Of a stretch of DNA of 64,000 bases, positions 1,383 to 9,645 are shown piece by piece. Under the pieces are notes generated by a model that was not told where the DNA came from, did not search any database, and was given only the letters and a program-made list of their open reading frames with translations. This DNA comes from Symbiodinium sp. CCMP2592 (lineage: Eukaryota > Sar > Dinophyceae > Suessiales > Symbiodiniaceae): contig CAJNDT010002768.1 in the NCBI GenBank assembly GCA_905221615.1, forward strand, positions 344,094-408,093, written 5' to 3'. The translations under genes and the position numbers were made by a program. The first letter of the stretch is position 1, and each line of letters starts with the position of its first letter.

Positions 1383-4300
1383 TTACACATCATCACTCAT
1401 CGTGGACTCTGGGACATCAGAACCAGTGGGTACATCAGGTAGAGATGAAACACCAGCATCCCCATCGATCATGGCCACCTCCAAGCCTTCGACCACAGGA
1501 CCAACACCCCCAACGAGAGGAAGGTCAGCAGGGTTCAGGGCAGGACAACCAGGAGAGACTTCAGAACTTCCAGGCACGACAGCAACTGGCACTGCAGTCT
1601 CGTCAGAATGTTCAGGTAGTGCAGAAACACTGCCATGAGGTACAGCAGACGGTGCAGCTCGTACAGGAATCCCAGGTAGTCCAACTCGGTCAGGAAGTAC
1701 ACCAGTGTCATCAGGAGGTAGAACCGAAGGTGCTGCCAAGGAGGAACTCACCAATGACTGAGGCATAGCATCCCCTCTTCGCAGTGCTACACTGGGTCCA
1801 GATAGCACAACGTCAAGCCCAGGAGAGTCGACCACAGGCTCATCTCGTACATCTGGTGCAGCATGTTCAGGTAGTCCAGCACGTTCAGGTAGTACACCAA
1901 CTTGGTCAAGAGGTACTTCCGAAGGCACCCCAAGGTCAGAACTCGCCCCAAACTGTTCTGTAACATCCCCTGCGCGCAGTGCTTCCTCAACAGCCTGCGA
2001 CGTCGCCGCCTGGAGAACCTCCACTGCTGAGTGCGGTACAGTACCACGTGGCAACAGTCCCGGCGGCTCACGGAGAGACGGAGGAGAAAGCCCAAGACGA
2101 CCAGGGGCTTCACCATGTACAACAGGTAGAGCAGGTGGAGCATCACGTCCTTCACGATAGGTTTCCCTTGCAGCCGTACGCACCCCACGAACGTCTCCTC
2201 CAGCACTCGCAGGCGTAGAAGCAGAAGCCATACCTGGTTCATCACGTTCTCCAAGTGGCGATCTCGATCTCGATCTCGATCTCGATCCCCGCGGTGCATC
2301 GTCCTCTCGACGACGTGTGTTGCGACCACCCCTTGTCCCTGAGAACAACGTCGATGTAGGGGCACTAGCGACCCCCTCTGGAACACGAGCTCTTTCAATC
2401 AGTTGCATTGCCACCTCCTCCTCCAAGGCACGCAGCAGAAAGTGGCGGTACTCAGCCATGTAGGCGACGACCCGTGTGCGCAACGCCCCATACGGTGGTT
2501 CCCGAGTCGCCGGAAAATAGGGAAGCGCCCCCAGGTTGGTGGTTCTTCGTGCAAGCAGGTCCCGCACAGTCTGCATGACACGAATACTGGCATCCCACGA
2601 CTCAACAACCAAACGTATGCCCCATCTGTATTCAGCTCCTTCACCCCGGTCTTGGATGTAGTTCAGCGAGGCCATGAGACTGCGCAGATGCCGTCGTGCA
2701 GCATCCTGGACATTCATATGATGTAGACGCCCCTCTTCCTCCACGGTGAGTTGCATGAGCGCACTTGTATCAGGGAGTTCTTCGTCGGTGGCAGCATTGA
2801 CATCCCCAACCACATCTCCAGTGACCTCCATTGTTGCGTCAGCGGCGGCGTCACCAGGACCAGCAGGGGCAGTAGGAAGACCAGGTTCAGCATGAGGAGT
2901 TGCCAAGTCGCCCCCACCAGACTGTGCCGTAGACTCGTTTGTCTCCGGCGGCGCCCCAATTTGGTAGTGGACGCCAGCTCTCTCGTTGGCCGCGCGTGTT
3001 GCAGCTCCTTCCCTCTGCGCGCGCTGCACCATTTCCCGAGCAAGTGCACGCGCGCGGGACATGGCCCAAGCTGCGGCATCACCACGCACGAAGGGTGGCT
3101 CAGGCAGCTGACGGCCATCAGCATCCACCCCATGCGGCATCCATTGCCTTCTTAGGCTTTCTTGGACCATGGACAGATGAAAATCATTCAACTGTCGTTG
3201 AAAGCCAGCAAAACCCACCACCAAACGCCCCCGAACTCCTGGATCCTCAGGCATGCGAGCTTCTTCATCTCGTAGGCGTCCCCAAAGAGTCTCCTGTGCA
3301 AGCTCGATGGTCGTGTTTCCCATGACCAGTGCATCGCCCCACACATCCAATGCCCAGGCAATGGCCCCATCCCCATACTGTTGACGAGCCCACTCCAGAA
3401 AGTCGCAGAACTCCCTCATGTTCGACACCATCTCCATTGTCCACCCAGCATCAAAAAGTGACTGTTGTTCTCCAAGAGAGAGTGGCATGGACGGGCCAAT
3501 CGCCCCATCACCAGCAGGTTGGTCGTCAGGTCGGCCCCTCTGCATAAGATCCACCTCGTCAGTCTGGTCCGGCGTCGCGTGGCTCTCCCATTGCTCCCAA
3601 TCTTCCCATTGTTTTCGCGTCCATCTCGGCGGTCGTCCCATGGCCGGACCAGCAGCAGCTTCTGCACGAGGACTTCCAGCTTCGGTAGGTACTTCGGGAG
3701 GATCACCATGAGGTACAGCAGGAGGAGCACGATCAGGAACAGCAGGAGGTTCGCAACCAGCAGAAGGTAGGACATCACCCCCATCTTGATCATCACGTGG
3801 TTCCCAATCCCAGCTAGGGACACAGCTCAGTGAACAAGAGGTGTGATCCTCACTGACACTGTCTATGTCGCCCCCGGCCTGGTTTGTACCAGTGTTTCTC
3901 GCAGCAGCTGTAGCTTCTTGGAGTGCACGTGCACCTCGAGCTTCAGCTTCACGTACAGCTTCAAGTTCTGCACCATCTCGAACACCAGTCCCATGAATGC
4001 GACGCCCCACCTCCTCCATGTCACGCCTCCACGCAGGAATGAAAGTACCTGCCTTCCACTGTCGCATCCTTTCTTGTCTCCGACTTTGGCGTTGCTGGCC
4101 TTGTCCATGTGGAATCTCTGTTCTGTCTCATCCCTCTGGCGGTCGATGTAGATGCCATGGCGATAGAATCCACGAGGACGAGCATCGCCAATCAGTCCAT
4201 GTAGTCCACGTTGTCCAGTCACTTTCGTCCCACTGCCACCACGAATCGTCCCACTCAGGCTGCGAATCGCCACGACTGTAGTCGTTCATCGCGGACGACC

Positions 4301-4934: not shown

Positions 4935-6290
4935 TCAGTTCTCCAGACAAAGCTGTCTCCCCCGGGCCCATGGTACATCCGCAAAAGCAAGCCACAAAGG
5001 CAACAAGTGTTTCCACCCCTCCCTGTTGTACGTGGCCTCGAACCAGTTTTCACCAAAGCATGCAGAGAGGGATCGCTCCAGATTAGCGGCCCGAAATCGC
5101 ATTGGATGTCGCGCCCCAGTAGTGAGACTTTTCTCGTGACTCCACCACTTCATAGATCGCCAGAACATCATACGCCCCGCCAGACCACAGCAACCATCTT
5201 CTCCTTCTGTTTGACGCATCCAGTGACCCGCCAGTTGGAACTGTAAGCGGAGCACTTTAGTACTCCACCTTTCCACCCCTGTTTGCGCGATCCAAAGGCG
5301 GACTTGTCGCAACGACCGGGCATTGTAACTGACCCAATCTTCCCCGGTCACTCGCCGTGTTCCAAAAGCTAGCCGTAGAACACGAAGTTGAGTGCTGTTC
5401 ATCATCTGAAGTTCGGCTTTCTCCCAGTGCACCGCCCCAGCCGACCACGACCATGCACCCTCCACAAGCATCTGGACAAGACGATGTTTTTCTCGCCAGC
5501 TGCCAGGTCCACAGATAAAGTTCTTGTTCTCGTGGAAGGCGCCCCAGACCCGGCCATGAAGTTCACGCGCTTGAGAGGCGGCAGGAGCATCCAGGTCGTA
5601 GTCAAGTCCAAGGACGCGCACAGCGCTGCCGATATCTTGGATTGCAACGTCCGTCCCATCGATGTTCACGACCCGGCGTCCCTTGTAGTACTTGCTGGCG
5701 ACGAGACACGTCTTCTTGACAGCAAGCTTAAGGCCAAGACGCCGAAGTTCATCAGCAATCTGCGCGATGTTCTTCTCGAGGATCCCCGCCGTGTCGGACC
5801 AAACGAAGATGTCGTCTTGGTACGTCCCAACGTCAGCTGCAACATCCCGTAGCTTGCCCACAGGTTGTTTCCACCGGCCTCCGTGTTTGAGTCGGTTGAT
5901 GACATCAGAGATAAGCATCCCAAAGATCTCCGCCGACTCTGGAGAGCCTTGACGAATGCCACGGTTGCACCGGACGCGGACAGAGCCACCCCCAGGAGAG
6001 ACACCCCTCAGCAAGTTGTCATCCAGAAGGCGTAGTAGAAATCGTTTTTCAAAGGAGAAGTCCTCATCGCAAAGTCGCGCCTGAATGAAGTCAGCAACGC
6101 TCCCCCTATTCACGTAGTCAAACGCCCCCTCAATGTCGAGTTTGACGACAACCACCCCAAGGCGCCACTCTCGCGTCATGTCTCGAAGTCGTCCCATGTA
6201 GATCCGCCGTACCGCGATTCTGGCCGCAGGCCGACCAGGGACAGGCTTCACGAAGGCAACGAAAAGTGCGGTTCATGACGACCTTGGACA
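4935..6290 (-). CDS. LINE reverse transcriptase, catalytic and C-terminal part
   Basis: RNA-directed DNA polymerase of the non-LTR type. Within the 438-residue open frame from 6251: motif A KLDIEGAFDYVNR (catalytic D39), motif B RGIRQGSPESAEIF (about 98-110), motif C TYQDDIFVW (catalytic DD at 146-147), motif D LGLKLAVKKTCLV (172-184), then a thumb-like region with VRVLGLDYD. All catalytic residues are present. It ends in TGA at 4937..4935, and I see no CCHC knuckle after the thumb. It is separated from the endonuclease frame by a frameshift near 6260 (frame 0 to frame 2), so in the intact ancestor both were one protein. A 228-base non-coding gap then precedes ORF3. Confidence 0.93.
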
Positions 6291-7920
6291 GGAGCTTCAT
6301 ACCACTGCACGACATAGCAATAGGGCGAAGCTCACGGACAGCTTCAGGACACGCAACCTTGGGCAGTAGGGCAAGCAAAGACTCACCCCACTTTTCCGGG
6401 ATATTCCCCGTGTAAACAGTCTCATTGAGAAGATGCAGGAGTGAGTCAGGGCAGGCAACGAAGATAGCTTTCAGGAGGTCAACACTCACCCCATCAGGAC
6501 CAAGTGCAGAACGAGCTCGCATCTTGTTGAGTGCATTCCCAACCTCTTCAGCAGAGAATGGCACGAAGGTAGAGGGGCAGCAGACGATATTTCGTATTCG
6601 CCCCTCCAGCTCAGCATGCCATTGCAGAAGTGGATCGCTGACCTTGGTCTCCAAATGTTCTGTGACTGCATCAGCAAGTTCTTGTGCACTCCGATCCTTC
6701 AAGAGGTCTCCCCACCAGCATTTTCGTTTGGACTCTGCCTTGGCATCACGATAGGCATGCCAATCGCCAGCAAGGATTTTCCCGGCTCGAGAAAGTTTCC
6801 ATGCACGACGGGCTCGACGACGAAGACGGTGCACCCCATTCCATAGAGCTTTTGCCTCAGGACCACGACAAGCTTTGGCTCTCCGTGTAGCTTCTCGTAT
6901 TTCATCGGTGTCAACGTACTTCTGTCTTTGCCTCGGTTCGGTGCAGCTCTTTGCCATCGCTGAGATATCATCCCAATCACGAGGCTCGTTGATGATCGCC
7001 CCCGGTTTCACCCAGCGAGGTCGAGAGTCGAGCCAAGTCCCCCAGGATGTAGCTTGCACGTCCACGACACACTCGAGCCGTGCGTGATCCGTGTTGATAT
7101 GAAAACGAACATCTGAGTTGACCTGCACTGGGCCGGCTCTTAACTGTCGAGTGAGGACCGCGTCAATGTGCCGACCTTCACGGCTCTCGTCCCGCGGAAA
7201 GTGGGTAGGATTCCAACGATGAGCAAAAACTGGAGGAACAAGGCGACAGCGTGCATCAGCAGCAGCCTCAAGGAACTTGTCGATCTTCGCCCCTGCTCGC
7301 ACACTGACCTCATCGTCCACTTCAACAGCACGGGTCCAGTCAACAACTTCATTGACATCGACCCCAAGGAAGCAGGGCACATCAGGATGCCACCGACGAA
7401 TGCGAGCCCGAAAGTCTTGAACAGCGGCATGATAGACACGTGTAGTCACCCCTGTCGGCAGATGCAAGGAAGAAAGAATCAATCGTCTGCTGTTGCGAAA
7501 CTTGATAAGCCATGCAGCACCCTTGTCAAAGCAGATTTTGTCAGTGCAACAATCAAAGATATCCTGCGAGATGCCAACCCCAACTCCCCTCCATTGTGAT
7601 GAACTTCTGTGCGACAGCCAAATGAAACCATCAGTCGTTTCTTCGCCCCAACCTTCATCGGCCCGAGGCATCTCCTGCACCACGAGAAAATCAAGCGTCC
7701 CAGATACAGCATCAACCTTAGGAGGAGGCTGCCCTCCAAGGTTCCAAGAAGCAGCATGTCGTCGGATTCCCGACCGGGTAGAAGTAGCACTACGCGTATT
7801 GCATCTGTCTGCCTCCACCGCCCCAGACACTGCCACGTCAGTCCGAGGCTCGCCAGGTACACCATCATGTGTCTTGGCACGTCCCAGACTGTCTTGGGTG
7901 AAACTTTTCTCGTCCTTTCG
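6245..7920 (-). CDS. LINE APE-type endonuclease and N-terminal reverse transcriptase
   Basis: Endonuclease that nicks target DNA to prime reverse transcription. Numbered from the GTG at 7836, the exonuclease-endonuclease-phosphatase motifs appear in order: WNLGG (31-35), VVQEMPR with the metal-binding Glu at 55, LGVDVNE (156-162, the D-x-N motif), RHIDAV (221-226) and the terminal TDH (248-250). A linker rich in Arg/Lys follows. The fingers of the reverse transcriptase begin at 439: ARSALGPDGVSVDLLK, WGESLLALLPKVA and RELRPIAMS. The frame is open from just after the TGA at 7921, and no ATG decides the start, which suggests it was once continuous with ORF1. The true frame leaves this reading near 6260. 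Confidence 0.9.
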
Positions 7921-9260
7921 TCAAAGCTCACGCTCTACCGCCCCAAGGGCGATATCAAACTGCACACCTGTTGCCCTCGCTACGGCCATGATGTCGACCC
8001 AGCCTGAGCTCAGGAGCTTGACACTGTCTCCCTTCGGGGCCCGATGCGAACTAGACCCCAATTTGAGATCTCCATGCCATGCCGTCCCAGAGTTCCAGTC
8101 GATGTCATACGCCCCGTCCTCTTTGGCCGCAATGTTGTGGGCTTCCTTGGCGATTTCAGCGTCTTTGACGAGGTTGGTGCACACTCTGCGTATCATGGAT
8201 CCATGTGAGGCTCTCCTCCTTGCTTCCCGCGTCTTGGTGAACTGAGCCCACATCGGTCGCCCCACGCCATCTGTGCCAGGAGTGGATGGCAGACGATACG
8301 GCGTAGCCCGAAGGTTCTGAATGATCTTCCACATGCGATTACGAACGTCCCGAATTTCTTCACCATCTCGCTGCTTGAACTTGAGAACTGCGAAAGCACG
8401 ACGGGGTCCCCAGACTGCGAGCTCGGTCTGGTCCAAGTCATTCTTGATCTCGTCCCGCTCCAAGAAGCCCTTGCCTTCCTCCAGGATGAGTTGTCGTCGA
8501 CTGTCAGGCAGCCACCCCCCAACAATCAAGGTTTTCTTGTCGTCATCTGAAAGTTCTTCTCGCCCCCCACCCTGAAAGCCAGAGGAGCCAGAGGGATCGC
8601 CCCGAGGAGGAGGTCCATCGACTGCGGCAGCAGCAAAAGCAGAACCTTTCTTGGCACGAAACTGCGCCCAGGGGTCCAGACTGCCCTCGCCCCAAAGTGG
8701 CCATTAGCTTTCCCAGGCATCTCGTTGGTATTCTGCATGGCCGCGACAGTTCGGGAGAGCTCCGTGACTTTGACTTCCAAGTCCGCCTCCTTTCTCTCAA
8801 CCTGAGTGACCCTGGAGTTCAAAGTGGCAGCCTCTTTTCGCCCATTTTCAAGACGTTCTTCGACTGCTACGACCCTGCCGTCCATCTCCTGCCATGACCT
8901 GGTAATAGCATGCAAATGTTGGTTAAGTAGATCACGAAACTCCCGAGAAGTAACAGGCTGATCACCCCCAGGAGAGAAAGCACGTCCTTGAGCAACACCA
9001 CGTTGTTGAGCTTCACGACCCATTCCAGGTTCACGTGCACGTTTGCCCCGACTAGGACTCCCTCCAGTGGAGTCAACAGCCATCGCGTCCCTGGCAGCAG
9101 GAGGGTTCACGGCAGTGCCAGGGTTCGCCCCCGTAGAGTCGGACAGACCAGTAGCTGTTGCAGGCCTATCACCACGTTCCTCATCCTTGACCGAGACGAG
9201 GTCCTCGTCGTCATCATCACCAATCTCGGTGGGACTGCCATCACGTTCAGGATGCGCCAT
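7921..9260 (-). CDS. LINE ORF1: acidic region, coiled coil, basic nucleic-acid-binding-like domain (frameshifted)
   Basis: It starts at the ATG at 9260, after a 297-nt leader following the spliced leader (MAHPERDGSPTEIGDDDDED). The N-terminus is acidic and Ser/Gly/Pro rich. Residues about 90-180 form a heptad-like coiled coil (VVAVEERLENGRKEAA, VTQVERKEADLEVKV). The frame shifts at a GGGG run near 8689 into WGEGSLDPWAQFRAKKG. It then reads through SDDDKKTLIVGGW into a compact domain (GWLPDSRR, LKFKQRDGEEIRDVRNRM) and ends at TGA 7923..7921. Coiled coil plus a basic domain is the usual plan of LINE ORF1 RNA chaperones; assignment here is by order and layout, not by a recognised domain. The endonuclease follows in the same frame after the TGA. 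Confidence 0.75.
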
Positions 9261-9330
9261 GGACAGCAGATAGTTCACAGAGCAGGTAGGCCGGCACGGC
9301 AAGAGTCCGCAGGCCCCAGAAGATGCTCAG

Positions 9331-9405
9331 TGATGACAAAGGGCAGAAGCACGTAGAGGAAGAAGAGTGTCTCAAGTGATGACAAAGGGCAGAATCACGT
9401 AGAAG
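9331..9405. repeat. two-copy direct repeat in the LINE 5' leader
   Basis: GTGATGACAAAGGGCAGAA followed by CACGTAGA occurs twice about 48 bases apart, at about 9331 and 9378, inside the 5' untranslated leader of the LINE. Tandem leader repeats occur in some LINE promoters; no role is shown here. Confidence 0.7.
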
Positions 9406-9557
9406 GCGCGTGCCTCGAGCGCCGTCCTCAGTGAAGGGCCGGTGAATCGACCAGAAATGGATAAAAAAGTACACCCCAAGGGAGGAGGAAGACAAAGCTC
9501 AGAATCAGCCAGAAGACAAAGACCATCCGGCACAGTCGGCTCCTTGATCCACAACGC

Positions 9558-9579
9558 CTTGAGCCAAAATGGCTACGGG
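9558..9579 (-). ncRNA. dinoflagellate spliced-leader (DinoSL) sequence, retro-integrated
   Basis: Reading the minus strand from 9579: C, then CC, then GTAGCCATTTTGGCTCAAG. That is the complete conserved DinoSL after its variable first base. In dinoflagellates this 22-nt leader is added to mRNA 5' ends by trans-splicing, so its presence in DNA at the head of a LINE marks a reverse-transcribed mature transcript. No SL RNA gene body (donor plus Sm-site region) follows; the LINE leader follows directly. Upstream (plus coordinates above 9579) is telomere-like repeat. Confidence 0.95.
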
Positions 9580-9645
9580 TTTAGGGGTTTAGGGGTTAGG
9601 GTTGAGGGGTTTAGGGGTTAGAATACAGGGTTTAGGGTTTAGGGC
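9577..9645. repeat. telomere-like tract abutting the 5' end of the LINE
   Basis: GGGTTTAGGGGTTTAGGGG and further variants begin exactly where the spliced leader ends; GGG is shared by both, a possible microhomology at the junction. Confidence 0.9.

Follow-up and report, generated by a model that had tools for sequence, protein, structure and literature searches.

DinoSL spliced-leader sequence as the DNA terminus of LINE families in Symbiodinium

The window LINE and its 5' end

The window analyzed here, a 64-kb stretch of DNA from Symbiodinium sp. CCMP2592, contains on its minus strand a LINE of approximately 8.2 kb with a spliced-leader (SL) sequence at its 5' end. The leader, CCGTAGCCATTTTGGCTCAAG, occupies positions 9558-9578 and is identical at 21 of 21 bases to nucleotides 2-22 of the dinoflagellate spliced leader, DinoSL. 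It is the sole match in the window with up to three mismatches allowed, and a chance match is ruled out by its absence from 100 shuffles and by a reversed control that matches nowhere in the genome. The first base of DinoSL is D, that is U, A or G (PMC6050394), whereas position 9579 is a C on the minus strand and belongs to a CCCTAAA-like, telomere-like repeat on that strand (9577-9644), which shares a CC with the leader and is the likely target of insertion. The window leader thus comprises nucleotides 2-22 and not all 22. A first-pass annotation of this DNA had described a complete DinoSL at the 5' end of the LINE, with telomere-like repeats directly outside it; the terminal position and the adjoining repeat are borne out, with the leader itself one nucleotide short. 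The leader is followed by GC, not by a GT donor, and runs on into LINE sequence. An Rfam scan of the window matched no family.

All parts of the element lie on the minus strand. Directly inside the leader is a degenerate relic leader, GCGTTGTGGATCAAG (9543-9557), which agrees with the relic DinoRL, CCATTTTGGCTCAAG, at 11 of 15 bases in the exact 15-nt register. The 5' UTR spans 297 nt (9261-9557) between the leader and the first ATG of ORF1 (9260-9258). ORF1 (7924-9260) is frameshifted in the window copy, its split frames reaching up to 9302, and has relatives 3' of the leader in L035, L047, L008 and L046 (L-numbers label individual leader loci taken from the same genome). The N-terminal part of ORF2 (6133-7920) is endonuclease-like by homology and aligns with L035, L047, L029 and L030, with no Pfam match of its own. 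The reverse transcriptase (RT) part of ORF2 (4938-6272) is frameshifted relative to the endonuclease (EN) part and matches RVT_1 (E 1.9e-12) in the frame at 4938-6251. Then comes a third long open frame of 914 codons (1386-4127), which gave no tblastn match in any of 48 leader loci; a Pfam scan of the part that starts with ATG (1386-4067) was negative. An A7 run (1329-1335) is taken as the 3' tail, after which a CCCTTAAACCC-like, telomere-like repeat begins.

L035 and L047 also have long third ORFs in this place after the RT ORF; with that of the window they range from 914 to at least 1311 codons, and none has a Pfam match. L035 has the same ORF order as the window LINE, its three open frames being 509, 1005 and at least 1311 codons long, and is 37-41% identical in protein to the window EN, RT and ORF1. 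The Exo_endo_phos family is matched weakly in the relatives L030, L031 and L041, above the cut-off in L031 only. For ORF2 of L030 the best solved structures include R2 proteins, with LINE-1 ORF2p a weaker match, and 2 of its 12 protein relatives are named pol of Symbiodinium. Together with the leader and the TTTAGGG-type repeats of the window, these relatives suggest a dinoflagellate of the Symbiodiniaceae kind. By homology, the window element would be an APE-type non-LTR retrotransposon (LINE) with a third ORF.

Leader loci and LINE termini across the genome

The DinoSL 21-mer is a genome-wide feature, with 429 exact places (217 + 212) in the 1.098-Gb assembly, in which the window lies at G000:C2768:344094-408093, and none for the reversed control. 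Forty-eight of the 429 loci were sampled in list order (8, then 20 with 3 kb, then 20 with up to 10 kb of DNA), and counts on 49 canonical places refer to these loci plus the window. Canonical loci were picked by exact match, so that the perfect leader in them is partly a matter of ascertainment. A local RT profile, applied up to 9 kb from the leader and seeded with seven of the 20 long loci, L012 and the window (the seeds match by construction), detects an RT 3' of the leader and in the same sense in 12 of the 20 long loci: L029, L030, L031, L035, L036, L040, L041, L042, L045, L046, L047 and L048. L029 and L030 are near-identical, and the RT of L036 lies 8 kb from the leader. An antisense RT is present in one of the 20, L040, which has a sense RT as well (sign test for sense versus antisense, 0.0017, with the 12 sense loci not all independent). 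Searches by tblastn with the window LINE proteins gave matches 3' of the leader in 9 of the 48 loci (L008, L012, L029, L030, L035, L041, L042, L046, L047). Among selected ORFs, Pfam RVT_1 was matched in 9 of the 20 long loci (L030, L031, L035, L040, L041, L045, L046, L047, L048), below the curated cut-off in L031 and L046. Ten ORFs after other leaders had no Pfam match; their loci may be retrogenes or contain unrecognized ORF1s.

Several loci have distinctive arrangements. In L031 (G000:C126:150919-160918, from 1001 on the plus strand) the leader is followed by a DNA_methylase open frame, which starts 42 nt from the first base of the leader, and then by EN- and RT-containing ORFs. Six loci (L001, L012, L033, L037, L038, L039) form a family that starts with the leader plus TRCTGCACCTTTGCT-like sequence, five of the six after (GA)n microsatellites. 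Four of its members (L033, L037, L038, L039) have no RT match within 9 kb and may be non-autonomous. In L094 (G000:C708:128060-128360) two canonical leaders face each other head to head across 85 bp.

Several LINE families have the leader as their DNA terminus, and at two loci it is accompanied by target-site duplications. Over 4659 bp L029 and L030 have 99.94% identity, and the 1521 bp of L002 agree with both. From the leader on the three are 99.9-100% identical, each starting with the leader plus one relic, and their 5' flanks have no similarity to one another, the divergence falling exactly at the leader. The groups L020/L024, L001/L039 and L014/L032/L022 likewise share sequence only from the leader on, at lower identity. 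Target-site duplications were sought as a copy of the flank after an A run, with 200 control flanks per locus taken from the same locus. In L041 a duplication of 11-13 bp adjoins leader nucleotide 2 and bounds a unit of about 8.47 kb, and in L047 one of 8-11 bp adjoins nucleotide 2 and follows A12, for a unit of about 8.6 kb; none of the 200 controls was as good in either case. No duplication was found in the other 46 of the 48 loci, many of whose 3' ends lie beyond the fetched DNA. In the window, telomere-like repeats at both ends, beyond the leader and the A7 run, obscure any duplication. The base preceding the canonical leader is T in 16, C in 12, A in 12 and G in 9 of the 49 places; any base may therefore stand there, and the cap-proximal nucleotide 1 is not regularly copied. 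In L024, L046 and L014, pieces of the leader or of the element start are repeated, directly or inverted, just upstream, giving complex 5' junctions. The first-pass annotation had proposed that LINE DNA carrying the leader derives from a trans-spliced transcript, and as far as the DNA shows this is upheld, the leader being the terminus of the inserted unit.

Relics, inverted leaders and flanking repeats

An exact 15-nt relic directly follows the leader in 9 of the 48 canonical loci, and a match of 11 of 15 bases is present in L041 and in the window (null expectation for at least 11, 1.0e-4 per 15-mer). The window relic is found unchanged in L050, L051 and L073. Over 81 non-redundant leader loci, 8-mers matching GGCTCAAG at six or more of eight bases reach a summed fraction of 0.46 at positions 4-8 after the leader, a sum that may count a locus twice, against 0.0045 per position further in. 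Relics are stacked in L004, L074 and L084. L074 comprises three stacked leader-derived units, inverted and canonical alternating, and may be read as a record of several cycles. Such relics would fit repeated rounds of leader addition. Tandem-SL RNA genes have been published as an alternative source of intact relics (PMC6616646), and part of the relics could come from these.

A second form, the inverted leader AAATGGCTACGGCTCAAG, consists of the reverse complement of DinoSL nucleotides 2-13 joined to the last six nucleotides of DinoSL. It has 72 exact places in the genome, with none for the reversed control. The 39 places fetched comprise 37 open ends and two palindromes (L067, L086), and their bodies and flanks are mostly unrelated; L062 and L080 have a common flank and body and represent one event or a duplicated stretch. 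Among the open ends, 25 of 37 start exactly at AAATGG, the point at which the search pattern itself began, and five extend to CCAAAATGG. Exact 15-nt relics follow the inverted leader in L064 and L072. Near-perfect palindromes are centered on the inverted leader in L016 (arms of 246 nt), L067 (at least 97 nt) and L086 (at least 95 nt), the latter two limited by the fetched length.

These structures suggest that the inverted leader is a snap-back product of first-strand cDNA. Such a cDNA would end in CTTGAG-CC-AAAATGGCTAC-GG-3', and its GG could snap back on the internal CC and be extended; a hairpin left unopened would give a palindrome, and one opened in its loop would give an inverted leader. 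L016, L067 and L086 look like unopened cDNA hairpins of this kind. Snap-back requires a cDNA that ends at leader nucleotide 2, an end which the canonical junctions show independently. In DNA folding, the leader complement alone favors an AGCCA/TGGCT hairpin with the 3' ACGG unpaired, whereas the 27-nt snap-back product forms an 8-bp stem with an 11-nt loop. The register of priming is therefore taken from the observed products and is not a prediction of the folding.

The two leader forms meet within the family of the window LINE. A DNA search with window positions 8500-9579, and thus by body sequence, returned at least six places, the window included, and the 5' ends of the five other copies (L049, L050, L051, L073, L074) were read. 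Body pieces are 67-86% identical to the window (best per copy 67-79%), with only about 100 bp in two copies. All six copies have leader-derived sequence at their start, at one common junction after CCCTAAA-type repeats. The window alone has the canonical leader; in the other five the first part is inverted. The outer leaders are AAATGGCTACGGCTCAAG in L051, GCTACGGCTCAAG in L073 and L074, TACGGCTCAAG in L050 and AATGGCTATGGCTCAAG in L049. Across the six copies, 92 of 93 outer-leader bases, counted by hand from the start of the match, fit the canonical or the snap-back leader. The starts of the inverted leaders vary (TACGG, GCTACGG, AATGG, AAATGG). A 19-nt sequence just inside the leader, GCGTTGTGGATCAAGGAGC (window 9539-9557), is identical in L050, L051 and L073 despite best body identities of 67-79%, and is possibly a functional element. 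The expectation that other copies of this LINE carry the SL at the same position is thus confirmed for the junction, at which five of five begin, and modified for the leader, which is rearranged.

Telomere-like sequence outside the leader is common and strand-biased. CCCTAA occurs within 60 nt upstream of 14 of 49 canonical and 11 of 19 inverted leaders (the first 19, one palindrome dropped), against 1.7% of same-locus tiles; the corresponding figures for TTAGGG are 2 of 49, 2 of 19 and 1.6%, so that CCCTAA stands against TTAGGG as 25 to 4 over the canonical and inverted loci tested. Over all 37 open inverted ends, CCCTAA is found at 23 and TTAGGG at 4. The repeats look like a preferred target, and the bias would fit nicking of the TTTAGGG strand with TTT priming on the A tail. 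The association of CCCTAA with leaders may be partly regional. The window is far richer in these motifs than other loci (CCCTAA in 11.7% and TTAGGG in 13.4% of its tiles); its own flanks are accordingly less informative on the choice of target. A second group of families stands after (GA)n, at 8 of 49 places compared with 0.9% of tiles.

A possible replication cycle and its relation to known systems

Probably, the window element is a LINE with a third ORF whose template for retrotransposition is its own mature, trans-spliced and polyadenylated mRNA. On the evidence of sequence, a cycle can be proposed in which a genomic copy would be transcribed, probably by read-through from upstream, and the spliceosome would join DinoSL to the transcript at an AG, as the junctions suggest. 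Use of the CAAG that ends the integrated leader would restore the leader exactly, whereas use of the internal GTAG would leave a 15-nt relic. The endonuclease would then cut open a CCCTAAA-like repeat, always in one orientation, and the A tail would be copied by reverse transcription, a step suggested by the flanks, the strand bias and the duplications in two other loci (L041, L047). Reverse transcription would proceed to leader nucleotide 2, the end seen at the junctions, and not to the cap-proximal nucleotide 1. Direct joining of the second strand to the target would yield a canonical leader, as in the window. Alternatively, the cDNA end would snap back, with GG-3' on the internal CC, and prime itself, and opening of the loop would leave an inverted-leader end. 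Since the leader carries its own AG, the 5' end would renew itself and need no internal promoter. Re-addition by splicing in each cycle is argued above all from the interchange of leader forms at one junction. More tentatively, and with somewhat less than an even chance, the leader may itself do work in the replication cycle and be renewed by the host in each generation, so that host trans-splicing makes the LINE 5' end and the leader complement can prime the second strand.

Other readings of the same data differ in what they make of the leader. It is highly improbable that the match in the window is an SL RNA gene, or that an independent insertion or a join in the assembly put it there. SL genes carry the 21-mer too, GC donors are possible in dinoflagellates (GU/C; PMC6616646), and GC follows the leader at 4 of 49 canonical places, the window included; but GT follows at none of the 49 examined (of 429), the window leader continues into the LINE, and relatives on other contigs have the same repeat, leader-derived sequence and junction. 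An SL RNA gene and an assembly join were rejected for the window on these grounds. The first-pass annotation had also suggested that the SL may be part of the transmissible unit; the interchange of leaders at one junction qualifies this, suggesting re-addition in each cycle and not simple inheritance. A further reading is inheritance in the element DNA, with transcription starting at the leader and no re-addition by splicing, and the rearranged leaders at the same junction speak against it. The young copies L002, L029 and L030 do share the leader plus relic exactly, as inheritance would have it, yet canonical and rearranged leaders stand at one junction within a single family, the outer leaders fit at all but one base while bodies differ by 14-33% from the window and inner relics are degenerate, and stacked relics fit repeated addition. 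This reading is decidedly unlikely.

The inverted form might itself be a second leader, a real one with its own SL RNA gene that would be placed on LINE and gene transcripts beside DinoSL. Its many places with mostly unrelated bodies and flanks, its sharp start at AAATGG, as a fixed leader RNA would give, and the relics that follow it as they follow DinoSL all speak for such a leader. Against it, the sequence is exactly the GG/CC snap-back product of DinoSL cDNA, the palindromes contain that product and would be hard to obtain by splicing, and the starts vary within the window family. GT follows the inverted leader at 1 of 39 places (L069) and GC at 2 of 39, with no excess of donor sites, and dinoflagellates are said to have only one SL (PMC6616646). 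The palindromes make snap-back the more likely origin, and a second leader seems unlikely. A more serious possibility, if one still short of even, is that the leader comes along passively, being given to every mRNA, LINE RNA included, and having no role in the cycle. Ordinary genes, too, have many SL-tagged retrocopies (PMC12014239, PMC6050394), and many of the 48 loci are without an RT match and may be retrogenes. The snap-back product does draw on leader sequence, and if the leader's own AG were used again and again, the leader would be of benefit even after a passive origin.

If the proposed cycle operates, any read-through transcript of a copy would regain a perfect capped end through the leader's own acceptor. 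The findings touch on the long-standing questions of how LINEs keep their 5' ends and how the second DNA strand is formed. With the leader as a marker of the RNA 5' end in DNA copies, one can tell to the base how far reverse transcription went, and the inverted leaders and palindromes have the look of fossils left by self-primed second-strand synthesis. The findings also suggest a source for SL-tagged retrogenes, namely LINE machinery acting on SL-capped RNA; in the sample of long loci, 12 of 20 leaders lead into a LINE-type RT. In the literature searched, which takes in few subscription papers, neither LINE families that end in DinoSL nor inverted leaders are described.

DinoSL-tagged retrogenes are a close parallel: their integrated cDNA starts with a leader or relic, and a 15-nt relic remains after loss of the first seven nucleotides (PMC12014239, PMC6050394). 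The units integrated here likewise begin with one or the other, with the difference that the tagged cDNA is the autonomous LINE itself, repeatedly and in families; inverted leaders and palindromes do not appear in the portions available of those two accounts. In Schistosoma mansoni, six genome-encoded SL exons are merged to transposable elements and trans-spliced, retro-transcribed elements were suggested, with assembly chimerism left open (PMC5832876); the leader-bearing LINEs here show duplications at two loci, junctions common to a whole family, and near-identical copies whose flanks differ. SymbioLINE-Dnmt of Symbiodinium is a LINE with a DNA methylase in ORF1 (PMC5890265). L031 has the architecture described for it and also starts with DinoSL, whereas the window LINE has no methylase in the frames scanned with Pfam; neither "spliced leader" nor "splice leader" occurs in the available main text of that paper. 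The L1Tc/ingi elements of trypanosomatids are also LINEs in a host with SL trans-splicing, and carry the Pr77 promoter and have unspliced transcripts (PMC8190864). SL-linked viral elements near LINEs have been reported as well (PMC10235124).

Among LINEs of other hosts, the window family can be compared with two groups in different respects. TRAS and SART LINEs insert into telomeric repeats; the targets here are interstitial, degenerate CCCTAAA repeats, and site specificity is putative. R2-type elements obtain their 5' end when a 5' ribozyme processes the RNA of a co-transcript. Trans-splicing would do the 5' processing in the Symbiodinium elements, a role analogous to that of the ribozyme, and would, if the proposed cycle is correct, stand with internal promoters and ribozymes as a third means of setting the 5' end of a LINE.
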